NCBI GenBank assembly: GCA_014874485.1
Contig: JADBJK010000075.1
Span: 1-64,000 of the forward strand
DNA: 64,000 bases
Source: Chloroflexota bacterium
GTDB lineage: Bacteria > Chloroflexota > Anaerolineae > DTLA01
Direction of reading: 5' to 3'
The position numbers and the translations under genes were made by a program. Of the stretch, positions 30,517-59,897 are shown piece by piece (the first letter of the stretch is position 1; every line of letters starts with the position of its first letter). A model generated the notes under the pieces. That model made no database searches. It saw only the letters and a program-made list of their open reading frames with translations, and had not been told where the DNA came from.

Positions 30517-30591
30517 TGTCATCCTGAGCGAAGCGAAGGATCTCGGTCGGCGACGCCCAGATTCTTCGCCGCTTGGCGGCTCAGAATGACA
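30517..30591. repeat. 75-bp repeat with TGTCATCCTGAG inverted ends
   Basis: Ends TGTCATCCTGAG and CTCAGAATGACA are inverted with one mismatch. The core has GCGAAGCGAAGGATCTCGGT and ATTCTTCGCCGC. It matches a submodule of the composite elements. In the frame of the next gene it would encode 'MSCHPERSEGS', a common false N-terminus. Confidence 0.85.
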
Positions 30592-37200: not shown

Positions 37201-37944
37201 ATGAAAGTCGCAGCGGTGGTATTGACGAAAAACGAAGCGCGGCACATCGCCGATTGCCTCGCCACGCTGGACTGGGCGGACGAGCGCGTGGTGTTTGACT
37301 CGTTCAGCGACGACGGCACCGTGGACATCGCCCGCGCGTCGGGCGCTCGCGTCATCCAGCACCCGTTCACGGGCTACGCCTCGCAGCGCAACGCCGCGCT
37401 GGAGCAGGTGGAGGCCGATTGGATTTTCTTCGTGGACGCCGATGAGCGCGCCACGCCCGAACTGGGCGCGGAAATCCGCCAGGTGGTGCAGCGGCCCGAA
37501 GTGGGGTGGTGGGTTCCCAGGCGCAATATCATCTGGGGCAAGCACATCCGCCACACGGGTTGGTCGCCCGACTATCAGATGCGCCTGCTGAAGCGCGGAT
37601 TCGCGCGGTACGACCCCGCCCGCGAGGTGCACGAGGTGGGCGTGCTGGACGGCGCGGAGGGGTTCCTGCAAAACCCGCTGACGCACTACAATTATGACAC
37701 GATCCGACAGTTCGTGCAGAAGCAGGGGCGCTACACCGAGTACGAGGCGCGAATCCTGCTGGAGTCGGGCACCGTGCCGCGGGCGCGGGGACTCGTCGGC
37801 CAGCCGCTGCGCGAGTTCTACCGACGGTTTGTGTCGCTGGAGGGCTACAAGGATGGCGGCCATGGGTTCCTCTTGAGCCTGCTGATGGCCTACTACGCCT
37901 TCCGACGGGTGCAGATGGCGCGGAGGATTGCCCGTGGGCGGTAG
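37201..37944 (+). CDS. Family 2 glycosyltransferase (WaaE/KdtX-like)
   Basis: A 247-residue glycosyltransferase starting 'KVAAVVLTKNEARHIADCLATL', with 'WADERVVFDSFSDDGTVDIA' (outline: FDSFSDDGTVDIA) and the metal-binding 'FFVDADERATPEL' near residue 77, then 'PRRNIIWGKHIRHTGW'. This layout is that of the WaaE/KdtX-like GT2 subgroup. ATG 37201 begins exactly at the conserved first strand; the frame is open back to 37138 but runs through a short repeat-like segment. It overlaps the following gene by about 11 bases. Role: transfer of a hexose to a surface glycan, inferred from family and cluster. Confidence 0.88.
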   Translation: MKVAAVVLTKNEARHIADCLATLDWADERVVFDSFSDDGTVDIARASGARVIQHPFTGYASQRNAALEQVEADWIFFVDADERATPELGAEIRQVVQRPEVGWWVPRRNIIWGKHIRHTGWSPDYQMRLLKRGFARYDPAREVHEVGVLDGAEGFLQNPLTHYNYDTIRQFVQKQGRYTEYEARILLESGTVPRARGLVGQPLREFYRRFVSLEGYKDGGHGFLLSLLMAYYAFRRVQMARRIARGR

Positions 37945-39256
37945 GATGCGGCGGGTGAGGCGCGCCATCTCCAGGTTCTCCCACTACGCGGCGACGGCGT
38001 TGTTCCTGCTGCTCCTGCTCGTCGGCATCCGCTCCGACGTGTACCCCCACACCAAGGTGCTGGAGCAGCGGCTGGAGGTGCTCACCGCGGGCAAGCGGTT
38101 CAGCGTGGCCGCGTGGGAGGTGCAGGCGCTGACGGACAAGGCGTTGCAACTCGTCCGTGGGTCGCGCCTGGACGAGGGCGACACGGCGCTGGTGCGGGAG
38201 TTCTTTGACGTGGCGGGGCGCATCGGCGCTCTGCGGGCCGAGGCCGAACGCCTGGCCGCGCAGAAACTCCACATGTCGGCGCGGGCGTTGGAAATCCAGG
38301 CCGAGTTGAAGACGCTGTACGCCAAGCGCGATGCCCTGGAGGATGACGCCGAGGACGTGCTGGCCCTGCAAGTTACGCGGGCGCTGCGCGAGAACGAGTT
38401 GTACACGCGCATCCTGGGGTGGAATGTCATCTGGCCGCCCGTTACCAGCGAGTTCGTGGATTTGCCCCTGCTCCTTGTGATCTCACCCCGCGAGCGGATT
38501 GAGCGCCGCGTGGACTACCTGCTTGACCCCGACCTGACCGTGGCCGAGATGGAGGCGATTGAGGACGCGGTTCGGGACATGGGCTATTCGGGCCTCGTTA
38601 CCCACATCGGCGGGCTGGCCACGTACCCTGCGATGATTCCCGAAATCTACGGGCTGGGGTTCGTCCTGGACACGATGCCCCACGAGTGGGTGCATGACTT
38701 CCTCGCGTTCTACCCGCTGGGCTGGGCCTATGGCACGTCGCACGAAATGACGACGATGAACGAGACCACGGCCGACATCGTCGGCGAGGAGATCGGGCAA
38801 TACCTGGCGCGGCGATACTACCCCGAATACGTGCGGAAGCCGCAGCCCTCGCCGACGCCCGCGCCGAAGCCATCGGAGCCGCCAGCGTTCAGTTTCGGCG
38901 CGTTCATGCGAGAGACGCGCCTTCGCACGGATGAGTTGCTGGCGCAGGGGCGCGTGGACGAGGCCGAGGCGTACATGGAGCAGCGGCGGCTGGAATTGCA
39001 GGAGCACGGCTACTACATCCGCAAGTTGAACCAGGCGTACTTCGCGTTCTACGGGTCCTATGCCACGGGGCCTGGCTCCGTGGACCCCATCGGGCCGCAG
39101 TTGCAGAAGTTGCGGGCGGCGTCGGCGTCGCTGCGGGAGTTCCTGTTCACAGTGGCGCGGATGCGGTCCTACGATGACCTGGTGCGTGTGGTGGGCACGC
39201 CCGAACCGACGCCCACGCCGACGCCGACCCCCGCGGCGACGCCCGCCGTGCCCTAG
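37934..39256 (+). CDS. Membrane-anchored HEXXH putative metallopeptidase
   Basis: A 440-residue protein of no family I can name with certainty. One hydrophobic segment about residues 17-31 anchors it, followed by a mostly helical region about 40-180. The zincin motif HEWVH is at about 250-254 in 'MPHEWVHDFLAFYPLG', and 'MNETTADIVGEEIGQYLARR' follows about 25 residues later, supplying Glu residues suited as third zinc ligand, so a gluzincin-like peptidase is likely. After about 295 comes a Pro-rich linker, a helical region and a Thr/Pro C-terminal tail. GTG 37934 has GGAGGA six bases before it; ATG 37946 is the alternative. It ends the plus-strand surface cluster and overlaps the opposite xseB by four bases. 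Confidence 0.7.
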   Translation: MGGRMRRVRRAISRFSHYAATALFLLLLLVGIRSDVYPHTKVLEQRLEVLTAGKRFSVAAWEVQALTDKALQLVRGSRLDEGDTALVREFFDVAGRIGALRAEAERLAAQKLHMSARALEIQAELKTLYAKRDALEDDAEDVLALQVTRALRENELYTRILGWNVIWPPVTSEFVDLPLLLVISPRERIERRVDYLLDPDLTVAEMEAIEDAVRDMGYSGLVTHIGGLATYPAMIPEIYGLGFVLDTMPHEWVHDFLAFYPLGWAYGTSHEMTTMNETTADIVGEEIGQYLARRYYPEYVRKPQPSPTPAPKPSEPPAFSFGAFMRETRLRTDELLAQGRVDEAEAYMEQRRLELQEHGYYIRKLNQAYFAFYGSYATGPGSVDPIGPQLQKLRAASASLREFLFTVARMRSYDDLVRVVGTPEPTPTPTPTPAATPAVP

Positions 39257-39501
39257 CGGCTGCCCTCGTCAAATGGGGCAAACGTCGCTTCTCCGTCGGG
39301 CGATTCGGTCAGCAGTTTCAGTTTCAGTTCGGCTTTGTCCAGCAGGTCCTGGCAGTGGCGGGCGAGCAGGCTGCCCCGCTCAAACAGTCGGATGGTGTCC
39401 TCCAGCGGCAGATTGCCCGCTTCCATCTGCTCTACCAGCGCCTCCAGTTCGCGGAAGGCTTCCTCAAAGGACAGAGCCGCAATGTCTGCGTTTTGGCTCA
39501 T
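39253..39501 (-). CDS. xseB: Exodeoxyribonuclease VII small subunit
   Basis: An 82-residue subunit with the family core 'LSFEEAFRELEALVEQMEAGNLPLEDTIRLFERGSLLARHCQDLL' seen in parts ('SFEEAFRELEALVEQMEAG', 'LPLEDTIRLFERG'). It joins XseA to form the enzyme that digests single-stranded DNA from both ends. The ATG overlaps the xseA stop (ATGA), giving coupled translation. It is the last gene of a long minus-strand operon and meets a convergent gene tail to tail with a 4-bp overlap and no terminator between. Confidence 0.95.
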   Translation of the reverse strand: MSQNADIAALSFEEAFRELEALVEQMEAGNLPLEDTIRLFERGSLLARHCQDLLDKAELKLKLLTESPDGEATFAPFDEGSR

Positions 39502-40739
39502 GATGGTTTGCTCTCCTCATCTTCTCGGTCTTCGGCAACCCGCCCGTGGAAGGCCCCGTCGCTGACCTGCACGCGGATGGCGTCGCCTGGGCGGACGTGG
39601 CGGGTGCTGGTTACCAGTCTCCCCGACGGGCGCAGGGAAACGATGGCGTAGCCGCGGGCCAGCGTCGCCTGGGGCGAGGCGCTGTGCAGGCGGTCGGCGG
39701 CGGCCTTGAGCGCGCCCTTGCTGTGGGATAGCGTCTGCCGCGCCGCCAGCGTCATGCGGTGGGTCAGTTCGTCCACGCGCTGACGGTGGCTCCGAATCTG
39801 CGCTTCGGGCGAGGCACGGCGCAGGGCCTTGTGGACGTAGGCGAGGTTGGCCGCCATGTCCTGGACGCGGCGCGACGCGGTGCGGCTCAGGCGTTCGGCC
39901 ATGTCCTCCAGCGCGGCGAGGAGTTCGGCGCGGTCGGGCGTAACGAACTCGGCGGCGGCAGTGGGCGTGGGCGCACGGCGGTCGGCCACGAAATCGGCGA
40001 TGGTGAAATCGGTCTCGTGGCCGATGCCGGTAACAACCGGTATGCGGGACCGGGCGATGGCCCTCGCGACCTGCTCGTCGTTGAAGGCGGCCAGTTCTTC
40101 CACGGAGCCGCCGCCCCGCGCCACGATGAGCACGTCGCAGTCGGTGTGGCGGTTGAGTGCTTCCAGCGCGGCGACAATCTGCGCGGGGGCGTCGGCGCCC
40201 TGCACCTGGGTGGGGGCCAGGGTGGCGGCGACGCACGGGAACCGCCGCCGCAGCACGTGCAGGATGTCGCGCAGCGCGGCCCCGTCGGGCGAGGTTACGA
40301 TGCCGATGTGCCGCGGGAAGTCGGGCAGGGGGCGCTTGCGCTCCTCGGCGAACAGCCCTTCGTCGCGCAGGCGTTGTTTCAGTCGCTCCAGTTGGATGTA
40401 GTAGTCGCCCAGGCCCGCGGGCTGAATCTCGTCCACGTAGAGCTGGTAGGTCCCCTGGGCTTCGTACACGCTCACCCTGCCGTGGGCCAGAATGCGGTCG
40501 CCGTTCTGGGGCAGGGCGCGAATTCGCGCAGCGGTAGAGCGCCACAGGACGCACCCAAGGCGCGCGCCCGCATCCGTAAGGCTGAAGTAGATGTGGCCCG
40601 AAGACGGGCGGGACAGGTTGGACACCTCGCCTTCCACCCACACGTCGGCGAGGGCCTCGTCCTCGTCAAAAAGCCCCTTGATGTGGAGCGTGAGTTCGCT
40701 GACGGTGAAGGGGCGGGCGAATAACGTCATCTGTACCAT
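39498..40739 (-). CDS. xseA: Exodeoxyribonuclease VII large subunit
   Basis: A 413-residue catalytic subunit. The N-terminal OB-fold appears in 'FTVSELTLHIKGLFDED', 'VWVEGEVSNLSRPSSGHIYF' (in part) and 'GCVLWRS'. The nuclease core has 'GIVTSPDGAALRDILHVLRRR', 'DVLIVARGGGSVEELAAFND' (in part), 'IPVVTGIGHETDFTIADFVAD' (in part) and 'RAPTPTAAAEF', all diagnostic of XseA. It ends with the basic coiled-coil region and 'LARGYAIV'. The start lies four bases after the comF stop, and the stop overlaps xseB. Function: degradation of single-stranded DNA in repair or after DNA uptake. Confidence 0.97.
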   Translation of the reverse strand: MVQMTLFARPFTVSELTLHIKGLFDEDEALADVWVEGEVSNLSRPSSGHIYFSLTDAGARLGCVLWRSTAARIRALPQNGDRILAHGRVSVYEAQGTYQLYVDEIQPAGLGDYYIQLERLKQRLRDEGLFAEERKRPLPDFPRHIGIVTSPDGAALRDILHVLRRRFPCVAATLAPTQVQGADAPAQIVAALEALNRHTDCDVLIVARGGGSVEELAAFNDEQVARAIARSRIPVVTGIGHETDFTIADFVADRRAPTPTAAAEFVTPDRAELLAALEDMAERLSRTASRRVQDMAANLAYVHKALRRASPEAQIRSHRQRVDELTHRMTLAARQTLSHSKGALKAAADRLHSASPQATLARGYAIVSLRPSGRLVTSTRHVRPGDAIRVQVSDGAFHGRVAEDREDEESKPS

Positions 40740-40743
40740 GGCA

Positions 40744-41439
40744 CTACCGCCTATCCCCGTCGGGCAGGCGCGGGCGGCAGAGGGTCATGGCCCAGACGGC
40801 ACGCGCTCCGGCGTCCAGGGCGGCCCGCGCGCAGGCTTCCAGGGTGGCGCCGGTGGTGCACACGTCGTCTATGAGCAGCACCGACTTGCCTGCCAGGGCC
40901 GACGGTTCGCCCTGGAACGCGCCCTGCACGTTCTGCCACCGCTCGGCTGCCGTCAGCGTAACCTGGGGCAGCGTGGGGCGGACGCGGCGCAGGGCCTTGT
41001 TGGCGGCGGGGATGCCGGTGGCGCGACTGAACTCCGTCGCCAGCAGGTGCGACTGGTTGTAGCCGCGTTCCTTCTGCCGCCGCGGGTGCAGGGGGACGCC
41101 GATGACCGCGTCAACGGGGTGGTGCAGGCGCTCCCAGTCGTGAACCAGCAGGCTTGCGAGCGGCCCGGCCAGCACGCGCTGCCCGTTGTACTTGAAGTTG
41201 TGGATGGCGGTGCGCAGCGGCTCCTCAAACCAGGCCACCGAACGGACGCCGCGAAGGGCCGTGGCACTCCAGGCGTTCGCGGAGAAGGCCGCGCGCGGGT
41301 CGGTGCCGATGTACGCGATCTGGGCCAGGCATTGCGGGCACAGGTGGTGCCCCACGCGCCCACATCCGCCGCACTTGGGCGGGAAAATCCAGTCCAGCAG
41401 GGAGTCCAACGTCCTGGCAAAGGCTGGTGCGAGGCCCAT
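40744..41439 (-). CDS. comF: ComF family protein (competence/phosphoribosyltransferase)
   Basis: A 231-residue protein. The N-terminal zinc finger has Cys pairs 'PPKCGGCGRVGHHLCPQCL' and the C-terminal phosphoribosyltransferase domain has the binding loop 'VLLIDDVCTTGATLEACA' near residue 195, plus 'RGYNQSHLLA' and 'RPTLPQVTLTAAER', the ComF signatures. ComF proteins act in the cytoplasm during DNA uptake by transformation in several bacteria. ATG 41439 starts at the conserved 'LLDWIFPP' region; a longer frame upstream lies within the DUF192 gene. It sits four bases from its upstream and downstream neighbours, in one transcript with tadC and xseAB. Confidence 0.94.
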   Translation of the reverse strand: MGLAPAFARTLDSLLDWIFPPKCGGCGRVGHHLCPQCLAQIAYIGTDPRAAFSANAWSATALRGVRSVAWFEEPLRTAIHNFKYNGQRVLAGPLASLLVHDWERLHHPVDAVIGVPLHPRRQKERGYNQSHLLATEFSRATGIPAANKALRRVRPTLPQVTLTAAERWQNVQGAFQGEPSALAGKSVLLIDDVCTTGATLEACARAALDAGARAVWAMTLCRPRLPDGDRR

Positions 41440-41443
41440 GGTG

Positions 41444-41797
41444 TCAATCCTCGGAATCGCCCAGGGCGATGAGGTCGCCCACGGCGGTGTGCGTAGCGCG
41501 GATGGTTCCTGGCGGCAGTTCCACGATGGCGCGGCAGCCGCCCACGACGGGGCCGACGCGCCAGGGGGGCATGGCCTCTTCCAGCCGCAGCACGCGCCCG
41601 TCGCGGTCCAGGTACAGCACATCTATCGGGAAGCGCATGAAGAAGGTGTGGATGCTGTTGTCGCCGACGAGCACCAGTGCTTCGCCTGGGGCCAGGCCAG
41701 GGTGAAGCATCAGGCCGCGCAGGCGCTCAAAGAACGTCCGCGCGGCCGTGGCGCGATGGGCGAGCGTCGTTTGCCTGGAGCGGTTGACGATGATCAA
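41444..41797 (-). CDS. DUF192 family protein
   Basis: A 117-residue protein with the DUF192 core: 'TFFERLRGLMLHPGLAPGEAL' (in part), 'HTFFMRFPIDVLYLDRDGRV' and 'VVGGCRAIVELPPGT'. TTG 41797 overlaps the tadC stop codon (TTGA), so it is translated by coupling; no ATG is available. The family is small and beta-rich, with unsettled function, sometimes exported; this one has no signal peptide. Its position between a pilus-platform gene and comF suggests service to the pilus or to DNA uptake, but this is inference. Confidence 0.86.
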   Translation of the reverse strand: MIIVNRSRQTTLAHRATAARTFFERLRGLMLHPGLAPGEALVLVGDNSIHTFFMRFPIDVLYLDRDGRVLRLEEAMPPWRVGPVVGGCRAIVELPPGTIRATHTAVGDLIALGDSED

Positions 41798-42723
41798 AAC
41801 AGCGTCCCGAACACGTTGGAATGGATGAGGATCAGGATGGCGGGTCCCAGCAGCAGGATGTAGATGCTCGGGAAGATGAGGAAGACGAGCGGGAACGTCA
41901 TCTTGAGCGGGGCCTGCTGGGCCTTCTCCTCGGCGCGCTGGCGTCGGCGGATGCGCATCTGCTCCGACTGGATGCGCAGGACCTTGGCGATGCTGACGCC
42001 GAGTTGGTCGGCCTGGATGACGGCGGCGACGAAGTTGGTTACCTCGGGCACATCCATGCGGGCCGACATGTTGCGCAGGGCATCGCGGCGGCTCTGGCCC
42101 ATGCGCATCTCGGCGATGGCACGGCCAAAGGCGCGGCTCAATTCGTTGTCCCACTTCTCGTTGACCTTGGCCATGGCGGCGTCAAACCCCAGGCCCGCCT
42201 CCACGCTGATGGTGAGCAGATCCAGGGCGTCGGGCAGCGCGCGGATGATCTCGGTCTTGCGCGAACTGATTTTGCCCCCCAGCCAAATGACGGGCAGTTG
42301 GAACCCCAGGAGCGCGAAGACGATGGTGAGCAAGAACCGCTGGGAGATGGGCGCCCCGAGTGCGTTCAGGAACAGGAGCGCCAGGCCACCCAGCATCGCG
42401 CCCGCCAGCCCTCGGACGCCGAGGAAGTCGGTGGCGCTCCAGTTGTTAGGGTTGCCTGCGGCTTCCAGTTTCAGGCGCGTGGACTCCACGTACTGCTTGG
42501 GCAGGAAGCGGGTTACGAACCGCGCGCTGGCGTTGATGAGCGGCTTGACGACGCGCTCGGAGAAGGGCTGCGACAGTTCCAACTCCTCCAGCGTCAGCGG
42601 GCGCGCGCCGTATTCGGCCAGGCGCTGCTCCAGGGGCGTGGTCTCCTTCCCGCCCGCCAGCGCCAGGAAGATGAGCAGGATGGACAAGCCTGCCAGCAGG
42701 GATACGACCAAAGGAACAAGCAT
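41794..42723 (-). CDS. tadC: Tad pilus inner-membrane platform protein TadC
   Basis: A 309-residue T2SSF-domain membrane protein. It has an N-terminal helix ('MLVPLVVSLLAGLSILLIFL'), two central helices and a C-terminal helix, with the conserved 'ALPDALDLLTISVEAGLGFDAA' segment (in part) and 'RNMSARMDVPEVTNFVAAVIQADQLG' region typical of TadC. Together with TadB it forms the platform on which the CpaF ATPase drives pilin insertion. A 200-bp repeat-rich gap separates it from tadB upstream. GGGAGGGAG precedes the ATG. Downstream genes overlap or abut. Confidence 0.94.
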   Translation of the reverse strand: MLVPLVVSLLAGLSILLIFLALAGGKETTPLEQRLAEYGARPLTLEELELSQPFSERVVKPLINASARFVTRFLPKQYVESTRLKLEAAGNPNNWSATDFLGVRGLAGAMLGGLALLFLNALGAPISQRFLLTIVFALLGFQLPVIWLGGKISSRKTEIIRALPDALDLLTISVEAGLGFDAAMAKVNEKWDNELSRAFGRAIAEMRMGQSRRDALRNMSARMDVPEVTNFVAAVIQADQLGVSIAKVLRIQSEQMRIRRRQRAEEKAQQAPLKMTFPLVFLIFPSIYILLLGPAILILIHSNVFGTLF

Positions 42724-42800
42724 TGCTTCTCCCTCCCACTACTCCTTCATCACATGGGTTCTTGGTCTTATGTCATGCGAGGGCGCGCCGCGCCCAATGC

Positions 42801-42902
42801 AGGGGCGACTCGCCGAGTCGTCCCTATATATTGTCATTCTGAGCGGCGAAGCCGCGAAGAATCTCGTCAGCCGAGATGCTTCGCTGCGCTCGCAATGACA
42901 AC
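42801..42902. repeat. Palindrome plus composite-repeat submodule between tadB and tadC
   Basis: 42801-42825 is an imperfect palindrome (AGGGGCGACTCG / CGAGTCGTCCCT). 42831-42902 runs from TTGTCATTCTGAG to CTCGCAATGACAA with GCGAAGCCGCGAAGAATCTC inside, a hybrid of the two end types seen in the composite elements. It splits the tad gene run but no opposing gene or clear terminator is present. Confidence 0.8.
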
Positions 42903-42923
42903 AGGCAATTCTCTGGTCAAGTC

Positions 42924-43877
42924 CTACACCTCAATCCTGATGATGCGCCGAATGATCGCAAAGCCAGAGCCGATGAGGATGAAGATCATGGCGACCATGG
43001 CCCAGCCGCACGGTTCACGGAACAGCGACAGGATATAGTCGCGGTTGATGAGGTACAGGATGAACCCCACGGCGAAGGGCAGCAGGCCCACGATGATGCC
43101 TGTGCCCGTCTGCTGGGCCGTGAGGACGCGGATTTCACCCTGAATCCGAATGCGCTCGCGGATGGTGAAGCCGATGGTCTCCAGAATCTCGGCCAGGTTG
43201 CCGCCGACCTCGTGCTGCACGTTGATGGCGGTGATCATCAGGTCCAGGTCGGGGCTGGGCACGCGGCGCAGCATGTTGTTCATGGCCTGCTCGTAGGACA
43301 GCCCTAGGCCGATTTCGCGGACGACCCGCTCAAACTCCGTGGACACGGGCGGGGCCAGTTCCTTCGCCACGGTCTCCATGGATTGCAACAGGCTGTAGCC
43401 TGAACGCAGAGAGTTGGCCAGGAGGGTGATGGTGTCGCCCAGTTGGTTGTTGAAGTCCTTGATGCGCTTGCTCTGCCGTCGGCGAATCCAGATGCGCGGC
43501 AAGAAGTAGCCGGCCACGCCCGCCAGCACTGCCAGGAACAGGTCCCGCTTCAGGACGAGGAGAAGCAGGAATCCTAGCAGGGTGGATGCGAGGTTGAGCA
43601 GCACGAATTCGGAGACGGTGAGCTTCAGGTCGGCGCGGGCCAGTTGGGTGGCCAGGTTGGCGGCGAACTTCGCGCGGCCGATCATCTGGTTCAGCGACGT
43701 TGTAACCTGCACGCCCTGGCCGCCCGAAGGCGATGCCAGCCCATCGTCGCGGCCCGCGTACTGGTCCAGGCGCGACGACACGCGGGGGTCGCGCCCCGAA
43801 AGGGCGCCCGCCAGCCCGATGAAGATGAACAGCACTCCCAAGCCAACCAGAATTGGCGCGATCACGGATGCAGGCAT
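42924..43877 (-). CDS. tadB: Tad pilus inner-membrane platform protein TadB
   Basis: A 317-residue T2SSF-domain protein with one N-terminal and three to four further helices. The conserved 'LGDTITLLANSLRSGYSLLQSME' (in part), 'VVREIGLGLSYEQAMNNMLRR' (in part) and 'DLDLMITAINVQHEVGGNLAEIL' (in part) identify TadB. It pairs with TadC as the assembly platform. It lies 49 bp after cpaF on the same strand. Confidence 0.95.
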   Translation of the reverse strand: MPASVIAPILVGLGVLFIFIGLAGALSGRDPRVSSRLDQYAGRDDGLASPSGGQGVQVTTSLNQMIGRAKFAANLATQLARADLKLTVSEFVLLNLASTLLGFLLLLVLKRDLFLAVLAGVAGYFLPRIWIRRRQSKRIKDFNNQLGDTITLLANSLRSGYSLLQSMETVAKELAPPVSTEFERVVREIGLGLSYEQAMNNMLRRVPSPDLDLMITAINVQHEVGGNLAEILETIGFTIRERIRIQGEIRVLTAQQTGTGIIVGLLPFAVGFILYLINRDYILSLFREPCGWAMVAMIFILIGSGFAIIRRIIRIEV

Positions 43878-43926: not shown

Positions 43927-45294
43927 TCACGAGATCTTCTTCACAACGCCAAAGGTGTCCGATGCAACGCGGATGTTGGCGGCCTCCAACTTTTCCATGA
44001 ACTTGGGGCGGATGCCCGTGGGGCGAAGCCGCCCGATGACCTTGCCATCCTCCACGCCCACCTGCTGGAATCGGAAGATGTCCTGCATGACGATGGTATC
44101 GCCCTCCATGCCGATGACCTCGGCGATGCTGACGACGCGGCGGACGCCGTCGCGCATGCGCTCCTGGTGCACGATGAGGTCAAGGGCCGAGGCGATTTGC
44201 TCGCGGATGGCGCGGTGCGGCAGGTCCATGCCGGCCATGAGCACCATGGTCTCCAGGCGCGACAGGGCGTCGCGCGGGCTGTTGGCGTGCAGGGTGGTCA
44301 TGGAGCCGTCGTGGCCGGTGTTCATGGCCTGGAGCATGTCCAGCGCCTCGGCGCCGCGGACCTCGCCCACGATGATGCGGTCGGGGCGCATACGCAGCGA
44401 GTTGATAACCAGGTCGCGGATGGTAACCTCGCCCTTGCCCTCAATGTTGGGTGGGCGCGACTCCAGGGTAACGACGTGCTCCTGCCGCAATTGCAGTTCG
44501 GCGGCGTTCTCAATGGTGATGATGCGCTCGTCGTTCGGGATGTAGGCCGACAGGACGTTGAGCGTCGTGGTCTTGCCGGAGCCGGTGCCGCCGGAGATGA
44601 GGATGTTGAGCCGACCCAACACGCACGCCTTGAGGAAGTCCAGCGCCTCCTGGGTCAGCGTGCCGTATTCCACCAGGTTCTCGGCGGTGATGGGGATTTT
44701 GGCGAACTTTCGGACGGTGAGCACCGGCCCGTTGAGCGCCAGCGGCGGGATGATGACGTTGACGCGGGAGCCGTCGGGCAGGCGGGCGTCCACGTAGGGC
44801 GAGGCCTCGTCCACGCGGCGGCCCAGCGGCGCCACGATGCGGTCAATGATGCGCAGCAGGTGCTCGTCGTCGTCAAATCGGACGGCGGTCTTCTCAATGC
44901 GGCCCCTGCGCTCAATATACACGGCATGGGGGCCGTTGACCATGATTTCGTTGATGGACGGGTCGGCCAGGAACGGCTCAATGGGGCCGTAGCCGATGAT
45001 GTCGGCCACGATCTGCTCAAACATCCTGTGGCGCTCGGTGCGGCTGAGGATGATGTTTTCCTGCGCCAGGATGGAGTTGAACAGTTCCTCAATGGCGCGG
45101 CGCACGTCCTCGCGCTTGCTGATGTCCAGTTTCTCGTCCATCTCGGCGACGAGGCGTTCCTGGATGCGCGATTTCAGGTCTCGGTAGGTTCCCTCGGTCT
45201 GGGTCATGACCGCAGGCTGGCGGGCTCGGAGTTCTTCCAGCCGCGATGCTTTCTCCTCGGGTTGGGTTCCTTCAATTCGTTTCAGAAGCGACAT
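43927..45294 (-). CDS. cpaF: Tad pilus assembly ATPase CpaF/TadA
   Basis: A 455-residue cytoplasmic secretion ATPase. It has the N-terminal helical domain ('[20 protein letters not shown]'), Walker A '[16 protein letters not shown]', the Asp box '[12 protein letters not shown]', Walker B region '[20 protein letters not shown]' and the His box '[20 protein letters not shown]', all intact. It hydrolyses ATP to drive pilus assembly, and in Caulobacter also retraction. The neighbours cpaE (32 bp upstream) and tadB (49 bp downstream) fit a single transcript. Confidence 0.97.
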
Positions 45295-45326: not shown

Positions 45327-46616
45327 TCAGATGGTGCGCCCGAAGAGGCCGCGCCGCGCCTTCGGTGCCGCGGTCGGCTCGGGCGCTTCGGCCTGCTCGG
45401 CGGGCTTTGGCGCGAGTTCGGCCACGATCAGGTTGGCCAGGTCGGTGATGGCCTGGGCCAACGGGCTTTTCCGATTGCCGAAGACGACGGGCACGCCTTC
45501 GTTGGCCGCCTGGATGGCGCTCCGTTCGTCCAGCGGAATCTTGGCGGCGACCGGGTGCTTGATGCTGGCTTCTATGTCGCGGGCGTTGATGGCTCCGCGG
45601 CGGTCGGCCATGTTGACGACGAGCATGGCACGCTCTTCGGGATACTGGAGCGCGTCGGTAACTTCAAAGAACAGTTTGGCGTTCTTGATGGACGGGATGT
45701 CGGGCGTCGTGATGAGCAGGATGCGGTCCGAAATGTCCAGGATGCCCAGCATCAGGTCGTGGAGCGACGCCCAGGTGTCCACGATGACGAAGTCAAACAG
45801 GGTCAGCAGTTGCTGGACGATGGCCTTCAGGTGTTCGGGCGCGACGAGGTCGGCCAGTTCCGGGCGGGCGGGGGCCAGGAGCGCCTTGATGCCCGACGAG
45901 TGGGGCGTGAGGACGCCCGCGATCATGTCGCTGTCCAGGTCCTTGATCTGCGGGATGAGGTCGGCGATGCTGCGCGTGGCCTGGAGGTTCAGCAGGACGG
46001 CCACGTCGCCGAATTGCAGGCTGGCGTCCACCAGCGCCACCTTGTAGTCGCCCAGGCCCTGCAGGGCGATGGCCAGGTTCACCGCAATGGTGCTGCGCCC
46101 GGTGCCGCCCTTGGGGCTGAAGACGGTGATGAGTTTGCCCCTGGGCTTGGCGGGCTTCACCGCGACTCCCGCGACGCCCTCCACAGGCACCCCGGCCTGC
46201 TCCAGGGTTACGCGGCGGCTGAGACCGAGTTCGTACACGCGCCGAATGCTGTTGACCAGGTCGTCGGCGGTGAAGGGCTTGGTCAGGAACTCGCGTGCGC
46301 CCGCCAGCATGGAGCGCCGCAGGTAGTCGGCGTCGGCCTGCACCGACATCATGATGACCTGGGCATAGGGGAACTTCTGCGTGATGGCCTCGGTGGCCGT
46401 GATGCCGTCCATCCCAGGCATGTTGATGTCCATCAGGACGATGTCGGGCCGCGTTTCCTTGGTCTGGCGAACGGCGTCCTCGCCGCTCACCGCCGTCCCC
46501 ACGACTTCCAGGTCTTTCTCAAAGTACAGCAACTTGCGGAGGCTTTCGCGGGTCTCCGGTATGTCATCCACGATGAGTACGCGGATTTTGCGTTGGGCGC
46601 TTCCTGCGTCGGTCAT
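45327..46616 (-). CDS. cpaE: CpaE/TadZ-type protein: receiver domain plus ParA-like ATPase
   Basis: A 429-residue pilus-localisation protein. Receiver domain about 10-130 with a complete phosphorylation site: 'VLIVDDIPETRE', Asp 63 in 'IVLMDINMPGMDG', Lys in 'FLTKPF'. The ATPase domain follows with the deviant Walker A 'FSPKGGTGRSTIAVNLAIAL' near residue 165, 'KVALVDASLQFGDVA' and 'FDFVIVDTWAS'. CpaE/TadZ proteins place the Tad machine at the cell pole or envelope site. Unlike the degenerate receiver of Caulobacter CpaE, this one could be phosphorylated. ATG 46616 is 36 bp after cpaB; the longer frame to 46952 lies inside cpaB. Confidence 0.92.
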   Translation of the reverse strand: MTDAGSAQRKIRVLIVDDIPETRESLRKLLYFEKDLEVVGTAVSGEDAVRQTKETRPDIVLMDINMPGMDGITATEAITQKFPYAQVIMMSVQADADYLRRSMLAGAREFLTKPFTADDLVNSIRRVYELGLSRRVTLEQAGVPVEGVAGVAVKPAKPRGKLITVFSPKGGTGRSTIAVNLAIALQGLGDYKVALVDASLQFGDVAVLLNLQATRSIADLIPQIKDLDSDMIAGVLTPHSSGIKALLAPARPELADLVAPEHLKAIVQQLLTLFDFVIVDTWASLHDLMLGILDISDRILLITTPDIPSIKNAKLFFEVTDALQYPEERAMLVVNMADRRGAINARDIEASIKHPVAAKIPLDERSAIQAANEGVPVVFGNRKSPLAQAITDLANLIVAELAPKPAEQAEAPEPTAAPKARRGLFGRTI

Positions 46617-46651: not shown

Positions 46652-47551
46652 CTACCGGGTCGCGGGGATGAGGGTCTCCAGCGACTCGTCCCTCAGAATA
46701 GGCACGGTGATGTTGAACCGCGCCAGCATGTAGTCCAGCGTAACCGACTGCGTCGTTACCATCTCCTGGTCGTTGGGGTTGCGCAGGGCCAGTTCTATGG
46801 TGGCCTTGGCTTCCTTGGCGAACTGGAGCACCAGCGCGTCCTGCTGGGGCATGAGGAGCGTAACCACGGCAGGCGGAGGCGGGGTCGCCTGTGCCTGTTG
46901 CTGCTGGCCGCCTTGCTGCTGCGTGGTCGGCTGGACTGGCGGCACGTACCACGAGCCCACGCGCAGGACCTCTATGTTCTGCAGCGTGAGTTGCGAGACC
47001 AGGCGGGGAATCTGCACCCCTTGGATGTCGCCGGGCTGGTTGCGGTCTAATGGGAAGGCCACCTGGGTCTCCCGGTCCACCTGCAAGAACTTGAACGTGA
47101 TGAGCACGTCCACGCGGTCGCCGGACTTCAGGGCATAGGACACGCCGCTGAGTTCGTCAATGGGGAACGGGTAGGCGACCATGCCGACCGGGATGAGAAT
47201 GGACGCGGGGCCTTCGCCGCTGGCCAGTTCGCTGGGCGTGGCAATCATCTTGGCCTGGATGATCTGGCCGGCGAAGATGGCGGTCTTGGCATACTTGCCC
47301 GCCAGGTCCGCCGTGTTGCCGATGGCATCTGCGGGGGCGGTGTCCACGGGCCAGTCGCGCATTTCCACGGCCAGCGGGTCAATGAGCGTGCCGTAGGGGA
47401 TGTCCTGGACGGCGACGGCCACCTTCCGCGTAACGATAGGCGGCTGCTCGGCCGGCTGCTGCGGCTTCTGGAGCATGGTGTATGTGAGGAGCATGGCGAC
47501 AATGGCCAGCAGGATTCCCAGGATGAGTAGAAGCCTAGATCTGCGTCGCAT
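46652..47551 (-). CDS. cpaB: CpaB/RcpC pilus assembly protein with SAF domain
   Basis: A 299-residue protein with one N-terminal helix ('RLLLILGILLAIVAMLLTYTM') and an external part. The SAF/beta-clip domain starts at 'VAVAVQDIPYGTLIDPLAVEMRDWP' (in part), about residue 44, followed by 'LSGVSYALKSGDRVDVLITF', the CpaB signature. A Gln-rich stretch ('TTQQQGGQQQQAQATPPPP') interrupts the C-terminal half. It is thought to contact peptidoglycan and, in diderms, the secretin; no secretin gene exists here. A good promoter lies directly upstream. Confidence 0.93.
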   Translation of the reverse strand: MRRRSRLLLILGILLAIVAMLLTYTMLQKPQQPAEQPPIVTRKVAVAVQDIPYGTLIDPLAVEMRDWPVDTAPADAIGNTADLAGKYAKTAIFAGQIIQAKMIATPSELASGEGPASILIPVGMVAYPFPIDELSGVSYALKSGDRVDVLITFKFLQVDRETQVAFPLDRNQPGDIQGVQIPRLVSQLTLQNIEVLRVGSWYVPPVQPTTQQQGGQQQQAQATPPPPAVVTLLMPQQDALVLQFAKEAKATIELALRNPNDQEMVTTQSVTLDYMLARFNITVPILRDESLETLIPATR

Positions 47552-47821: not shown

Positions 47822-49363
47822 TCATTTGGGCGGCACGTAAACCTTGTTGGACTCCGGCCCGTCGCCGCACCCATTGACCGCCTTGACGTAGTACCAGCGG
47901 CCCGATGTGGTCTTGTACGAGTACGACGTGCTGGTGGTGCTGGTCAGGAAGCCGTAGGTGCCGTCCTGGGCTGTGGCCCAGTAGATGTTGTACTGGGTAA
48001 CGGGCGGCCCGCTGGGGGCGTTCCAGGACAGGTACACGTTCTGGCCACTGCGGCTGCCGGTGAGCGACGTGGGCGCGTTGGGCGTCAGGCACGGCGTGGC
48101 CGTGGGCGTCGGTGTAGGCGTCGGGCCAACGGGCGTAGGCGTCGCCGTCGGCTCCGGCGTGTCTGTCGGTGCAGGCCCCACGGGCGTCTGCGTAGCCGTC
48201 GGCTCAGGCGTGAATGTTGGCCACGGAGTCGCCGTTGGCTCAGGCGGGTTCGTCGGTATAGGAGCTCCCCCCACCGGCGTTACGGTCGGCTTGTCGCGCT
48301 CGGTCAGGCGCATGACGACGACGCCCTTGTCCCACGGGCTGGGGTTCGTCCAGGTGCCGTCCACGATGTAGGACACGAACTCGCCGTCCAACTGGTGCTG
48401 GCCCTTGTTGGTAACCTTGAAGGCCGCGAAGGTGATGATGTGGTAGTAGTACTGGCCTTTCAGCGTATTGTTGTCCGTGTAGGCGCACACCACATTCGGG
48501 TAGTCGGACTTGCAGGCGTTGGCGCAGTAGTCCGGGTTGTAGCGCGGCGAGTTCTTGTTGCACTCCTCGTCGGTGGTGAACTGGTAAATCTTGTCAAAGA
48601 CGGGGAGCAACAGCACCTGTCCCACGTCAGCCTGGTGGAGGACCGACTCCTTCATGCCAGGGTCGGCCATGTAGTTAGAGTTACGGGCGACGTAGCCCTG
48701 GTAGCCATTTTCCATCCAGTACTTCAGGGAGTTGGCGTCGGGCGAGCACTTGGATGGGAACGCGCAGTCCAGCCCTAGCCAGCCCCAGCGCGCCGTGGCG
48801 TGCTTGTAGTTGCCCGCGAACAGGCTGTACTCGTCGCCCACTTGGAAGTCCGAGTACAGCACGGCCAGGGGCGCCAGACCGCGCACCTGCCAGGCCGCAC
48901 CGAAACTCGCCTCGGCCTCGGCGCACATGTTCATCATACCCAGGCCGACGAACCGCGAGAAGAACGTGGGGAAGTTGGTGCACGCCTGGACGTAGATGCC
49001 TGAGGCTCTGTCGGGATCGGGCACCGGCGAGCCGTCGCCCGCGTTGATGGCGAACGTCGACTGGTCGGGCCGGATGTACAGCGCCTGGACGGTCCGCGCC
49101 TGGTTGCGCTGGGCCCAGTCCAGGATGGTGCTGTACAACTGGCCGCTGGAGATGCGCTCCTCCGGAGCGGAACCCTGGGCGATGGTGAGTTCGCGGGCGC
49201 CGGCCAGCGCCGCGGCGTCGGCTGCGTTCTGCATCTGCCGCCGCTGGACGTAGGCATAGCTCAGGTCCACGGCGAACATGGCGAACAGCAGCAGCACCAC
49301 CATCGCAAACGCAACGATTACCAACGACTGACCTTTTTCTCTTTGCAATGTTGCTCCTTTCAC
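47822..49363 (-). CDS. tadG: TadG-like protein with C-terminal fibronectin type III domain
   Basis: About 513 residues. The N-terminus is the TadG type: 'REKGQSLVIVAFAMVVLLLF' helix, then 'FAVDLSYAYVQRRQMQNAADAAALAGA' (in part). A Cys-containing external region about 90-365 follows, then a Thr/Pro-rich linker ('PEPTATPWPTFTPEPTATQ') and a C-terminal fibronectin III domain ('PTSLTGSRSGQNVYLSWNAP' to 'YYVKAVNGCGDGPESNK'). The FN3 tail is unusual for TadG, which often ends in a von Willebrand domain, and suggests an adhesive surface role. GTG 49363 follows GGGAGG; TTG 49348 after AAAGGAG is an equal alternative. It lacks the prepilin Glu at +5, so it may not be cleaved. Confidence 0.85.
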   Translation of the reverse strand: MKGATLQREKGQSLVIVAFAMVVLLLFAMFAVDLSYAYVQRRQMQNAADAAALAGARELTIAQGSAPEERISSGQLYSTILDWAQRNQARTVQALYIRPDQSTFAINAGDGSPVPDPDRASGIYVQACTNFPTFFSRFVGLGMMNMCAEAEASFGAAWQVRGLAPLAVLYSDFQVGDEYSLFAGNYKHATARWGWLGLDCAFPSKCSPDANSLKYWMENGYQGYVARNSNYMADPGMKESVLHQADVGQVLLLPVFDKIYQFTTDEECNKNSPRYNPDYCANACKSDYPNVVCAYTDNNTLKGQYYYHIITFAAFKVTNKGQHQLDGEFVSYIVDGTWTNPSPWDKGVVVMRLTERDKPTVTPVGGAPIPTNPPEPTATPWPTFTPEPTATQTPVGPAPTDTPEPTATPTPVGPTPTPTPTATPCLTPNAPTSLTGSRSGQNVYLSWNAPSGPPVTQYNIYWATAQDGTYGFLTSTTSTSYSYKTTSGRWYYVKAVNGCGDGPESNKVYVPPK

Positions 49364-49402
49364 TTCTCCACCTCCCAAGATGTCTAGGGGGGAGTGGCCG
49401 AC

Positions 49403-49858
49403 TCAGTCAATGACCATTCGCGCTTTGGCGACCAGGTTCAGTGGCGGGATGATGCGCGTCCAACTGCGGAACTGCGCGCGCACGATGACCTGAATCTGGT
49501 TGCCGGTTACGCACAGGTAACGTTCGTACTCGTGTGCGCCGCCCCACTGGTCGTAGCAGTGGATTTCCACCTGCACGTTGTCCGCGCCCAGGGTCGCCAG
49601 CATGGCGCGGGTGCGGAACTCAATGTTGTTGGGCGGCGGGTAGTCGGCATCGGTCCAGCGCTTGGGCCAGACGGTGCCATAGCGTGCGCCTTCGCGGGCG
49701 GCGTTGGCCATGCTGGCCCACGTGAAGAACAGGCGCGAGAAGTCTATGGTGCCGATGATGATCAGCACGAGGATCAGGACCACCATGGAAAACTCCACGG
49801 CGGCCTGACCGCGTCGGCCCTTTCGCCAAAGTTCGCTCGGTGTTTGTCGCATCCTCAT
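49403..49858 (-). CDS. tadE: TadE-like pseudopilin (proximal to tadG)
   Basis: A 151-residue TadE-family protein. The prepilin-like site is 'RRGQAAVEFSMVVLILVLII', with Gly before Gln and Glu at the fifth position, followed by one helix and 'FSRLFFTWASMANAAREGARY', the family hallmark. It is expected to be processed by a prepilin peptidase, which is not encoded in this window, and to act as a minor pilin. ATG 49858 has GAGG eight bases upstream; GTG 49867 is possible. The gene is 10 bp after the upstream tadE-like gene. Confidence 0.9.
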   Translation of the reverse strand: MRMRQTPSELWRKGRRGQAAVEFSMVVLILVLIIIGTIDFSRLFFTWASMANAAREGARYGTVWPKRWTDADYPPPNNIEFRTRAMLATLGADNVQVEIHCYDQWGGAHEYERYLCVTGNQIQVIVRAQFRSWTRIIPPLNLVAKARMVID

Positions 49859-49868
49859 GCTCGCCACC

Positions 49869-50288
49869 TCACGGATTCACCAGGATCATCATCTCGGCCC
49901 TGCGCACGATTCGGATGGTGTTCAGTCCGATGGCGCGGCCGAAGGTGAGCGGGACGTCGTAGGTAATCGTAACGACCACGGGCGTGCCCGGCGCGATGCC
50001 GGACGACACGGCGACGTTGGCCCCTGTGAGTCGCACGCCGGTGAAGTTCATGCCCGAATCGTTGGCGAAGTCCACCACGCGGGCGCGGATGGAGTCGTAC
50101 CAGGTGGGGTGGTTAGCGCCAAACCGAGCGCCCACGCGCGCCGCGTTGGTCAGGACGATGGACGCGTCCAGCACGCGCCCGATGTCAAAGACCGACGCCA
50201 TAATAATCAGGATGATGGGCATGATCAGAGCCAGTTCCACCAGGCTCTGGCCGCGTCGCCGCGGTTTGAGGGACAGCCGTTTTCCCAT
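49869..50288 (-). CDS. TadE-like pseudopilin (distal)
   Basis: A 139-residue second TadE/TadF-type minor pilin with 'RRRGQSLVELALIMPIILII' (Gly-Gln with Glu at the fifth position) and 'DIGRVLDASIVLTNAARVGARF' (in part). The external part is small and beta-rich. Start codons GTG 50297, GTG 50294 and ATG 50288 are all possible; ATG is taken. Two TadE-type proteins plus TadG is a normal set for a Tad system. Confidence 0.88.
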   Translation of the reverse strand: MGKRLSLKPRRRGQSLVELALIMPIILIIMASVFDIGRVLDASIVLTNAARVGARFGANHPTWYDSIRARVVDFANDSGMNFTGVRLTGANVAVSSGIAPGTPVVVTITYDVPLTFGRAIGLNTIRIVRRAEMMILVNP

Positions 50289-50500
50289 CTTCACCACCTA
50301 CCTCAGCCTCGCACGATTGGAAGCACAGGGCCATGGCGGGCGGTCTTGCCGCCAGACGCCATGCCATCGGCCATGCTACCTGTATTCTATGCCCCCAATC
50401 CGGACTTCACAATAGGATTTAGGTACTGTCGCGCAATGATGGGATGAAAACGGTCTGCCTATGAATGTGCGGATGACAGGTTCGGTTGCTCGGATTGAGA

Positions 50501-50910: not shown

Positions 50911-51370
50911 GCAAACCGGTGGGATTGGTGGGACGGTTCCATCTTCTGTTGCAGATCGTACGCACGCGGTTCTGTTCGGTCATTGCGAGCGAAGCAATCT
51001 CGGACAGTAACATCGGGTTGATGGTGCGCAGGGTATCCTGCACCAGAAATGGGCGCTTGCGCCCAAGGCGGGCAGAATCTATTTCTCCATGAAGTCTCCG
51101 TGGTCAGCGTGCCGGGTGTTGCAACAACCGGCAAGGATTCATCGCATGTTCGTGGCGGGGGCGCTTGCCCTTGGATTAGGTGCGTCCGAGCAAGACGGTC
51201 GCCGTTGACCTCGTTTCGCAGAGGCCTTTTCATCGGATCGGGGTGCAAGAGAATACCTGAAAGGGGGTGATGTACGCGCTTAGGAAAGGCCGGCCCATGA
51301 GCAGTATCCGCTCTTCAATCGCGTCAACGGTCCTTTGGTAGTGCAGCGAGACACAGAAAGGAGAACGAAC
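50911..51370 (+). other. Long untranslated leader of the subtilase gene
   Basis: About 460 bases with no convincing gene. It contains a partial GTCATTGCGAGCGAAGCAATC repeat near 50980, a short stem GGGCGC/GCGCCC near 51050, and a 23-codon ATG frame at 51270-51341 ending 30 bases before the subtilase ATG. A regulatory RNA is possible, but no known riboswitch core was recognised. Confidence 0.35.
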
Positions 51371-54300
51371 ATGCACGGCAAGTATTGGAAGGCCCTCGGT
51401 GTGGTCATGGCGCTGAGCATGATCCTGGCGCTGGCCGCCCCGATGGCCATGGCAAGCGGCCCCGAGACCGCGACATCGGCCTCGCTGGCCAAGATCGCCC
51501 CGACCCTGCGGCCGGTCGCCAAGGCGGGCGGCGAGACGTTGGTGGACGTCAACGTCTTCGTGGCCGAGGGGACCGACGTGAGCGGCTACATGGAGAAAGC
51601 CACCGTCCGCACCATCCTGGGGCTCACCTCTGTGGTGGGCAAGGTCAAGGCCAAGAACCTGTTCAAACTGGCCTCCGTGGATGGTGTGATGGCGGTGCTG
51701 GATCCCATGCCGTATGCGCCACCGCAGCCGGTTGACCCCGATCTGGCGACGAAGCAGGCGCAGGCCGCGGAGAAGATCCGCGAGCGGGTCGCGGCGGTGA
51801 AGGCAGCGGGCTACCCCGGCGCCTGGCAGCCCGCGTCCAGGGACGTGGAGCCGACGGGCTGGTGGGACGTGGCCGAGGGCCACAAGTCCGCAGCGGCCTG
51901 GGCCAAGGGCTTCACCGGCGAGGGCGTGAAGGTGGCCGTCATTGACTCCGGCATAGACTTCGCGCACCCCGACCTGCAGGGCACCTGGGCCGTCAACAAC
52001 GACCCCGAGTCCCCGTACTACGGCTGGCCCATCGCCTTTGACGAGTACTCCATGCTCTACTACGCCTACTACTACGGCGCGTATGGTGGGCTGGGCCTCC
52101 GCTACTTCGGCACCTGGTACGCGGACACCTCCTTCACCATCACCGAAGACAACCCCACCTGGTCGCGCACGGGCTACACCTACGTAACCCCCGGCACCAG
52201 CAAGAGCGGCGTGTACCACATCGGCTGGTACCCCGACACCGCGCTCCAGGCCTGGTGGTACGGCGAGAAGGTGGCCGTCCTGGTGGCCGACGAGCATGAG
52301 GCCGGCGTTTACGACACCGTGTACGTGGACCTGGACGACAACTACGACTTCTCGGATGAGAAGCCCGTTACCAAGGACGACCCCATCGCTTGGAAGGACA
52401 ACTGGGATTCCGAAGCGGATGCCCCGGGCAGCGATGGCTACGCCGACATCTCCGGCGGTATGGTCTACTGGATTTCCGACGGCCAGAACCATCCTCCGGG
52501 ATTTGACTGGCTGTGGGCTCCGTATGTGGACGAGTTCGCGCCTCCTGGGCCCGGCAAGGTCGTCGCGTTCATGCTGAACGACCCGCGGCTGTCTGGCGGT
52601 GATCACGGCGTCCTGTGCGCCTCGGCGGTCGTCGGCCAGGGCGTGATTGACGGCAACGCGCCTCCCTACAAGCCGGAAGGCGCGGGCGGCATGGTGCAGG
52701 GCGGCGGCAAGAACGCCAAACTCATCGCCGTGGGCAACTTCTACCGCGGCGGCTATGCTACCGACAACTACTACTTCGTGGCGCTTGGCCCCGATGGCGT
52801 CCCGGGCACGGGCGACGAGGCCGACATCGTGAGCATGTCCTACGGCGGGTCGGCCACCGACAACGACGGCTGGGACTTTGAATCTCGGTTCCAGGCGTAC
52901 CTGAACAAGGCGGCCGCGCCCAAGCTGTCGTGGCTGGCGTCCACCGGCAACGGCGCCATGGGCTACGGCACCGTGTCTCCGCCCTCGCCCTTCACCGGCA
53001 TGGGCATCGGCGCGTCCACCCAGTACGGGTCTGGCACGGACTTTGACGTCATTGAGTCCACCGACCAGATTCTGTACGGCGATGTCCAGTCCTGGTCCAA
53101 CCGCGGGCCTGGTGCGACCGGCAGCACGGGTGTCAACGTTGCCGCCAACGGCGCGTGGGGCGCGGGCGACCTGGCCCTGAACGAGGTGGGCGACGGCTGG
53201 ACCGCCTGGGAAATCTGGGGCGGCACAAGCCGGTCGTGCCCCATCGCGGCGGGCAACCTGGCGCTAGTCTACGACGCCTACAAGCAGGCCAACGGCGAGT
53301 TCCCGACCTACGAAGTAGCGCGCGAACTGTTCATGTCGGGCGCGACCGACGCCAAGCATGACCCGTTCGTGCAGGGCGCGGGCGTGGTGAACGCCGACCG
53401 CGCGACCGACGTTGCGGGCGGCATCTACGGCCTGCGCGTGTCGCCTGCGTTCTGGCAGGCCGGCGACTACCGTGGCGAGGAGATTGAAGGCTTCGCCAAC
53501 ATCGTGCACCCCGGCACCTCTGCGAGCAAGACCTTCACCCTCTACAACCACGGCACGACGGACATCACCGCCACCGTTACCGGTGCCCACATGGAGAAGG
53601 TCGGTACCGTTACGCGCCAGTTCGACGTGAACCAGGCGGAAGAGAGCGCGCCGAACTTCCAGCGGCTGGCCGACTACCTGGCTGACCTGACCCTGCTGGT
53701 TGGGCCGGGTGGGCCGTACCACGACGCCGACCTGATGGTCGCCAAGGCGTGGTTCCCGCTGGAGCACTTCAGCACGAGCAACGTGTTCACCGGGCCTCTG
53801 GCCTACGACCAGCGGTTCCGCATCATCGCCTACGACTGGAAGGACATCAACGGCGATGGCATGCTGTGGACCGACCTCAACGGCAACGGTGTGGTGAACG
53901 CGGGCGAGGACCAGGTCGGTGAGTACAACCGCTACAACTACGGCTACGACACCGGCCCGTCCTTCGGCATCACGGTGCACAACCCGGGCCAGCGGTTCCA
54001 CGACGGGTTCTTCGTCGGCATCCAGCGCCGCACGCAAGCGAAGGTGAACACGAAGACCGTGGTGAGCCTGGAGATCACGTTCTTCAAGCGGGTGGACTGG
54101 CCGTGGCTGACCATTGACACCGGCATGACCGCGGGCGAACTGGTCGTCCCGGCGGGTGGCTCGGCGACCTTCACCGCGACCCTGGACGTGCCCGAGGATG
54201 CTCCGTTGGGCGCGTACGAGGGCGTGGTGCTGGTGTCCGACCCCGGCGATGGCGTCCACAGCGGCCACGTGTCGGCCATTCCGGTAACGGCGATGGTCGC

Positions 54301-56840: not shown

Positions 56841-57493
56841 TTGACCACAGAGAAAATTGCCTGTTGTCATTGCGAGCGAAGCGAAGCAATCTCACGCTCC
56901 GTCTGTCATGCTGAGCGAAGCGAAGCATCTCGGCTAACGAGATTCTTCGGCGCTTCGCGCCTCAGAATGACAGTCTGCTGGGATTGCTTCGGGCGCTGCG
57001 CGCCCTCGCAATGACACCCCATTTGTCATTGCGAGCGAAGCGAAGCAATCTCACGCTCCGTCTGTCATGCTGAGCGAAGCGAAGCATCTCGGCTAACGAG
57101 ATTCTTCGGCGCTTCGCGCCTCAGAATGACAGCCTACCGGGATTGCTTCGGGCGCTGCGCGCCCTCGCAATGACACCCCATTTGTCATTGCGAGCGAAGC
57201 CAAGCAATCTCACGCTCCGTCTGTCATGCTGAGCGAAGCGAAGCATCTCGGCTAACGAGATTCTTCGGCGCTCTGCGCCTCAGAATGACAGCCTACCGGG
57301 ATTGCTTCGGGCGCTGCGCGCCCTCGCAATGACACCCCATTTGTCATTGCGAGCGAAGCGAAGCAATCTCCGCTTGCGACGCACCTCCGAGGTGCGTCGC
57401 AAGTGCAGCCTCAGTAGGGACAATTCATGAAATTGTCTCTACGGGCGCTGCGCGCCCTCGCAATGACTATCAAGAATCCCTGTGGCAAAGTAC
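56841..57493. repeat. Composite repeat copy 3, expanded to a 3 x 159 bp tandem array
   Basis: Left end TTGACCACAGAGAAAATTGC; right end CAAGAATCCCTGTGGCAAAG. Inside, 56863-57021, 57022-57180 and 57181-57339 are three near-identical 159-bp units and a fourth begins at 57340. Each unit holds TTGTCATTGCGAG, TGTCATGCTGAG, CTCAGAATGACA and CTCGCAATGAC modules. After the array come the TTGCGACGCACCTC hairpin (57378-57412) and a damaged ATTCATGAAT palindrome. The whole 760-bp gap between genes is this element. Confidence 0.92.
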
Positions 57494-59710: not shown

Positions 59711-59897
59711 CTGACCACAGAGAAAGTTGCCTGTTGTCATTGCGAGCGAAGCGACGCCATCCAGTCGGCCCACGTGCGACGCACCTCCGAGGTGCGTCGC
59801 ACGTGCAGCCTCAGTAGGGACAATTCATGAATTGTCCCTACGGGCGCTGCGCGCTCTCGCAATGACACACCATCAAGAATCCCTGTGGCATAGTACT
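59711..59897. repeat. Composite repeat copy 4, flanked by 12-bp direct repeats
   Basis: Left end CTGACCACAGAGAAAGTTGC, right end ATCCCTGTGGCATAGTACT. Inside are TTGTCATTGCGAGCG, the GCGACGCACCTC hairpin, a perfect 28-bp palindrome at 59814-59841 (half GTAGGGACAATTCA) and CTCGCAATGACA. The sequence TGGTGTGCTGAC occurs at 59704-59715 and again at 59897-59908, on both sides of the element. From 59909 to 59994 no feature is seen. Confidence 0.88.

Follow-up and report, generated by a model that had tools for sequence, protein, structure and literature searches.

Tad pili, which extend and retract by means of a single motor, have usually been studied for their roles in adhesion, predation, and surface sensing, and their role in DNA uptake has been shown in very few bacteria. 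Micrococcus luteus is a proven case of Tad-dependent transformation (PMC4322843), and Liberibacter crescens is known to take up DNA by way of Tad (PMC8513845). M. luteus was reported to carry no competence genes beyond comEA, comEC, and dprA (PMC4322843), and a Tad uptake system can therefore work without ComF. The M. luteus system combines a Tad locus encoding TadA, TadB, TadC, and TadE/G with ComEC and DprA encoded in the genome and has no other type IV pilus ATPase (PMC4322843). All these features are shared by the Chloroflexota locus described here, which differs in having comF, cpaB, and cpaE within the tad gene run and whose uptake function is predicted. L. crescens, a Gram-negative bacterium, likewise combines a Tad pilus with ComEC, ComF, and DprA in its genome, but its locus tags place comF apart from tad (PMC8513845), whereas comF of the Chloroflexota locus follows tadC. 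A study of co-evolution in Alphaproteobacteria counts comF, comEC, dprA, and tadB among the genes that evolve together with gene transfer agents (PMC10883770) and may be regarded as a loose parallel.

ComFC is a transformation protein, and passage of DNA in Helicobacter pylori needs both its zinc finger and its PRPP-binding loop (PMC9005727). The same combination of a four-cysteine zinc finger and a PRPP-binding domain is found in ComFC of Bacillus subtilis and in the ComF protein described here. To our knowledge, neither H. pylori nor B. subtilis encodes ComFC together with a Tad pilus. In the open-access literature, no report was found that ties comF or DUF192 to tad operons, although absence from that part of the literature is weak evidence of novelty. 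A comF gene fixed in the tad gene run would appear to be an unreported variant of the already known Tad-dependent DNA uptake, with a function that is predicted from sequence.

Gene order and junctions in the window

The window, i.e., the whole stretch of 64,000 nucleotides that was analyzed, lies on contig 77 of 122 in a 3.74-Mb metagenome assembly that is 96% complete. Its minus strand carries the genes tadE-tadE-tadG-cpaB-cpaE-cpaF-tadB-tadC, followed by DUF192, comF, xseA, and xseB:

49869..50297, minus strand: tadE pseudopilin (Pfam PF07811)
49403..49867, minus strand: tadE pseudopilin (Pfam PF07811)
47822..49378, minus strand: tadG-like protein, Tad domain (Pfam PF13400) and a weak fn3 match
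46652..47551, minus strand: cpaB/rcpC (Pfam RcpC and SAF)
45327..46616, minus strand: cpaE/tadZ, receiver domain and ParA-type ATPase (Pfam)
43927..45294, minus strand: cpaF/tadA motor ATPase (Pfam T2SSE, E 2e-68)
42924..43877, minus strand: tadB (Pfam T2SSF)
42742..42923, no strand assigned: dispersed repeat between tadB and tadC (blastn against the window, the contigs of its own genome, and two congeneric genomes, L039 and L041)
41794..42723, minus strand: tadC, T2SSF platform protein, second of the pair (Pfam T2SSF, E 1.5e-16; position conserved in relatives)
41444..41797, minus strand: DUF192 gene, short type, no signal peptide, TTG start over the tadC stop (Pfam DUF192, E 5.8e-19)
40744..41439, minus strand: comF, four-Cys zinc ribbon and PRPP-binding domain (Pfam Pribosyltran and DZR_2)
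39498..40739, minus strand: xseA, exonuclease VII large subunit (Pfam Exonuc_VII_L, E 7e-102; NCBIfam TIGR00237 above its cut-off)
39253..39501, minus strand: xseB, exonuclease VII small subunit (Pfam Exonuc_VII_S, E 5e-20)

The Pfam matches bring together in one cluster the TadA/CpaF ATPase, the TadB and TadC platform proteins, the TadE/G pseudopilins, CpaB, and CpaE, which is the composition of a Tad/Flp locus; no Flp pilin was noticed among the minus-strand open reading frames of at least 50 amino acids near this cluster. The original prediction placed tadC, DUF192, comF, xseA, and xseB on one strand, overlapping or 4 nt apart, and both the Pfam assignment of each gene and the junctions read from the sequence agree with it. 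The TGA stop of tadC shares TTGA with the TTG start of the DUF192 gene (4-nt overlap), TGA and ATG are separated by CACC between DUF192 and comF (4-nt gap), TAG and ATG by TGCC between comF and xseA (4-nt gap), and the TGA of xseA and the ATG of xseB share ATGA (4-nt overlap). An internal terminator cutting off comF-xseAB, which would have spoken against a single transcript, was likewise not found: the terminator scan of the region revealed no minus-strand intrinsic terminator at any of these junctions, and two weak matches of 5 to 6 pairs, at 41756-41738 and 40689-40673, both lie within coding sequence (the region has 6 terminator-like sites, versus 2.7 in shuffles). We infer co-transcription of the run from tadC to xseB.

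The joint between tadB and tadC is loose, the gap being ∼200 nt in the window versus ∼20 nt in the two congeneric genomes. Both lack, at this junction, the dispersed repeat found at 42742-42923, whose recent insertion most likely loosened the joint in the window. An original operon boundary at this gap was considered and rejected, given that the repeat insertion is absent in the congeners and that the AT-rich tail of the hairpin is found only on the plus strand. The repeat family is rich in short inverted repeats and is represented by many partial copies, in the window (near 4832-4973, 7373-7535, 30517-30591, 56851-57374, 59718-59757, and 60704-60890) as well as in other contigs of the same genome (including L120, L121, and L123); three copies at 159-base spacing form a small tandem array at 56904-57374.

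Two plus-strand genes flank the Tad run. The gene at 37928-39256, convergent with xseB, encodes a 442-amino-acid protein that has no Pfam match and contains the sequence HEWVH (an HExxH motif); it could be a membrane-anchored metallopeptidase. This protein is conserved in the genus of the window and is also encoded ∼2.7 kb downstream of a tad-DUF192 cluster in another relative (genome G027, L035). Near the other end of the locus, 51341-55984 encodes a subtilase of 1,547 amino acids that is probably secreted and contains CBM96 and disaggregatase-type repeat domains.

Conservation of the tadC-(DUF192)-comF order

Profiles of the window proteins were run over the DUF192 and comF neighborhoods of 60 genomes from the class Anaerolineae, including that of the window; nearly all of the relatives, with few exceptions, are metagenome assemblies. 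The comF gene, which is close to single-copy and was found in 57 of these genomes, comes next after tadC or tadC-DUF192 on the same strand in 31 of the 60, representing 22 families. These make up 31 of the 46 Tad-bearing genomes, counted as 44 of the 60 with CpaF at E <1e-60 plus two with tadC-comF but no CpaF contig. Two near misses lie beyond the 31, one with a 2-kb gene in between (G043) and one with a contig edge just before DUF192-comF (G047), and comF is located elsewhere or missing in 13 Tad-bearing relatives. By estimate, comF would fall by chance within 1 kb of a single tadC, downstream and in the same orientation, with a probability of ∼1.4e-4 for a genome of 3.5 Mb, and the linkage, seen in 31 of 46 Tad-bearing genomes, is therefore more than chance. 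The full order in the linked Anaerolineae is cpaB-cpaE-cpaF-tadB-tadC-(DUF192)-comF, with intergenic distances mostly below 100 nt and some genes overlapping. The same order is found in Ornatilinea apprima (L163) and in metagenome-assembled genomes of Thermoflexus (L140) and Candidatus Aquidulcis (L188), a set that overlaps the 60 genomes and is not an independent count.

In a phylum-wide sample of 151 genomes, 62 genomes from other classes hold both comF and cpaF among the matches listed. In at least 19 genomes from at least 12 families of these other Chloroflexota classes, comF and a cpaF share a strand and are no more than 5 kb apart. The order cpaB-cpaE-cpaF-tadB-tadC-DUF192-comF is present in most of the 18 other-class loci that were read, among them a few with a distance of 5 to 10 kb and one located at the edge of its contig. 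Among the matches listed for this sample, comF-tad linkage was not seen in families f49, f52, f54, and f64. The tadC-(DUF192)-comF arrangement is a real conserved unit found across many families and in several classes of Chloroflexota.

DUF192 and ComF proteins

The DUF192 protein of the window scores 68.5 bits against the Pfam model PF02643 (gathering score, 27). Alignment separates the DUF192 proteins of the class into two subtypes, the short one found in the window and one with a six-residue insertion. In 18 of 22 genomes, the short type is encoded within a Tad cluster or close to one, either after tadC or, in a second Tad gene order with comF elsewhere, after cpaF; the type with the insertion was not found near Tad in the class neighborhoods. 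DUF192 follows Tad rather than comF. On plasmids, DUF192 has two remote matches only. Its AlphaFold model is confident (pLDDT 91) and matches the DUF192/COG1430 structures 3PJY and 3M7A (Foldseek TM-score of 0.69 to 0.73, normalized by the query), a family assignment also made by profile; beyond its own family, Foldseek returned nothing usable for function. The two solved structures share the fold of the window protein but have an N-terminal extension and no known function. 3PJY goes by the name of signal peptide protein; the Tad-linked DUF192 begins directly with the domain and probably resides in the cytoplasm.

In ComF, the four zinc-ribbon cysteines are invariant in nine aligned members, and the PRPP loop of the Tad-linked ComF, DDVCTTGAT, fits the pattern DDxxTTG(A/T)T. 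The best NCBIfam model for the window protein is TIGR00201 (E 1.1e-34), with a score of 120 bits that is below the curated cut-off of 233.6, which is why it is referred to here as a ComF-family protein and not as a proven equivalent of ComFC. On three contigs from different Anaerolineae genomes (G057:C40, G008:C155, and G019:C56), a second, shorter DprA-like gene adjoins a second ComF-like phosphoribosyltransferase stretch.

Predicted DNA uptake and alternative readings

The genome of the window encodes, outside the Tad locus, a single ComEC in which Pfam finds the domains DUF4131, Competence, and Lactamase_B and which has its nuclease-like domain, as well as DprA and, on another contig (C8), a single prepilin peptidase of the Peptidase_A24 family. 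A genome search found in it no PilT and no PilB-type ATPase, i.e., no other retractable type IV pilus. Across the 60 Anaerolineae genomes, this search, which detected the control genomes, found no PilT in 55 and no PilB-type ATPase in 56. Two more cpaF genes, neither of them with comF, are carried on other contigs, one with tadE-tadE-cpaE (G000:C70, L120) and one solitary (G000:C93, L121). Pilus formation, DNA uptake, and the role of DUF192 in this locus are predictions. The recurrence of the comF-tad pairing in distant Chloroflexota suggests that these pili serve DNA uptake, a plausible function for the Tad locus by analogy with the described systems and the one preferred here because, within what is known, Tad is the only candidate uptake pilus of this genome. 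The retractable Tad pilus would catch external DNA and draw it up to the membrane, one strand would pass inside through ComEC, whose gene lies elsewhere, and ComF from the Tad operon would help move or handle the entering strand, before DprA and RecA. We give about an even chance to the proposal that the Tad pilus captures DNA and that ComF from the same operon handles the entering strand behind ComEC. In its favor are also the inheritance of the linked state on the comF tree and the retention, in the Tad-linked ComF, of both motifs that H. pylori ComFC needs. Against it stand the competence genes kept by Tad-less relatives, the 13 Tad-bearing relatives in which comF is located elsewhere or missing, the small set of competence genes reported for M. 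luteus, and the repeated gain or loss of the linkage. The small, soluble DUF192 protein probably serves the Tad machine itself, since its gene stays with tad even in genomes where comF is not beside it.

A broader form of this proposal, in which Tad of Chloroflexota is the dedicated pilus of Tad-ComF-ComEC transformation, DUF192 is an undescribed Tad component, and the CpaF-like ATPase encoded after comF in some lineages is a candidate retraction motor, is tentative and somewhat doubtful. A comF gene fixed at the ends of tad runs throughout the phylum would lend genomic support to Tad-driven transformation as a widespread trait, in a mostly uncultured phylum in which it can be tested, and would give a clue to the function of DUF192, for which structures have been solved but no role is known. 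The Tad-comF question can be addressed in cultured Anaerolineae such as Ornatilinea apprima.

An alternative that we consider unlikely is that the Tad pilus functions in adhesion or surface sensing and ComF has another, general job in nucleotide or DNA utilization that is co-regulated with surface growth. In its favor, about 12 relatives in which neither Tad nor PilT nor PilB was detectable have kept dprA, almost all of them together with comF and comEC, so the persistence of these three genes is by itself no sign of pilus-driven uptake. In addition, comF located away from tad often follows a response-regulator gene (L083, L089, L098, L112, L114, and L176; a Pfam scan of one of them gave the NarL/LuxR type), which is a second recurring context of comF. 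Against this reading, it is comF, and not comEC or dprA, that is linked to tad in 22 families of the class and at least 12 families of other classes, which points to a direct functional tie. Going by the positions read, neither comEC (found in 55 of the 60 Anaerolineae genomes) nor dprA (found in 58) lies within 40 kb of a cpaF in any of them, the closest case found being 41 kb (G055). In one genome with no detected Tad (G036), a 101-amino-acid open reading frame directly upstream of comF (L098:1105-1410) matches positions 1 to 65 of CpaF and is possibly a relic of a lost tad operon.

It is quite improbable that DUF192 and ComF act here in the assembly or regulation of the Tad machine and not as competence proteins. 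Such a role would fit two observations. DUF192 is tied to Tad in either of two gene orders, behind tadC or behind cpaF, whether or not comF is there as well, and in L219-L223, from three families outside the class, comF is immediately followed by the gene of a second, shorter CpaF-like ATPase. For ComF, it is opposed by the survival of the gene without Tad and by the Tad-linked protein having kept the motifs of the ssDNA-handling ComFC.

The view that tadC-comF is an ancestral neighborhood, retained with no functional meaning, appears very improbable. On the comF tree, the linked state requires 20 changes, versus 43.9 with shuffled labels, and has therefore been inherited, as this view would have it, the same tree also showing repeated gain or loss of the linkage. 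However, gene order seldom survives from one class to another when the genes are unrelated, the genes have here stayed closely spaced, and comEC, dprA, and xseAB show no such retention.

The DNA-uptake reading, as outlined above, includes no part for exonuclease VII, the xseA-xseB pair having presumably joined the 3′ end of the run in this genus only. Conservation of the gene order in relatives, which the original prediction proposed as a check, extends to tadC-(DUF192)-comF, in many families and several classes, but not to xseA-xseB, and the suggestion in that prediction that exonuclease VII processes the incoming DNA finds no comparative support. A tadC-to-xseB operon in which the enzyme processes incoming single-stranded DNA is barely credible: comF and xseA are 4 nt apart in the window and both congeneric genomes keep the order, but no other linked genome, among the Anaerolineae and other-class loci read, has xseA-xseB beside comF, and in G015 the pair lies 4 kb from comF, with no tad genes. 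Exonuclease VII was thus rejected as a conserved part of the unit, and xseA and xseB are probably repair genes of the ordinary kind that share the transcript.
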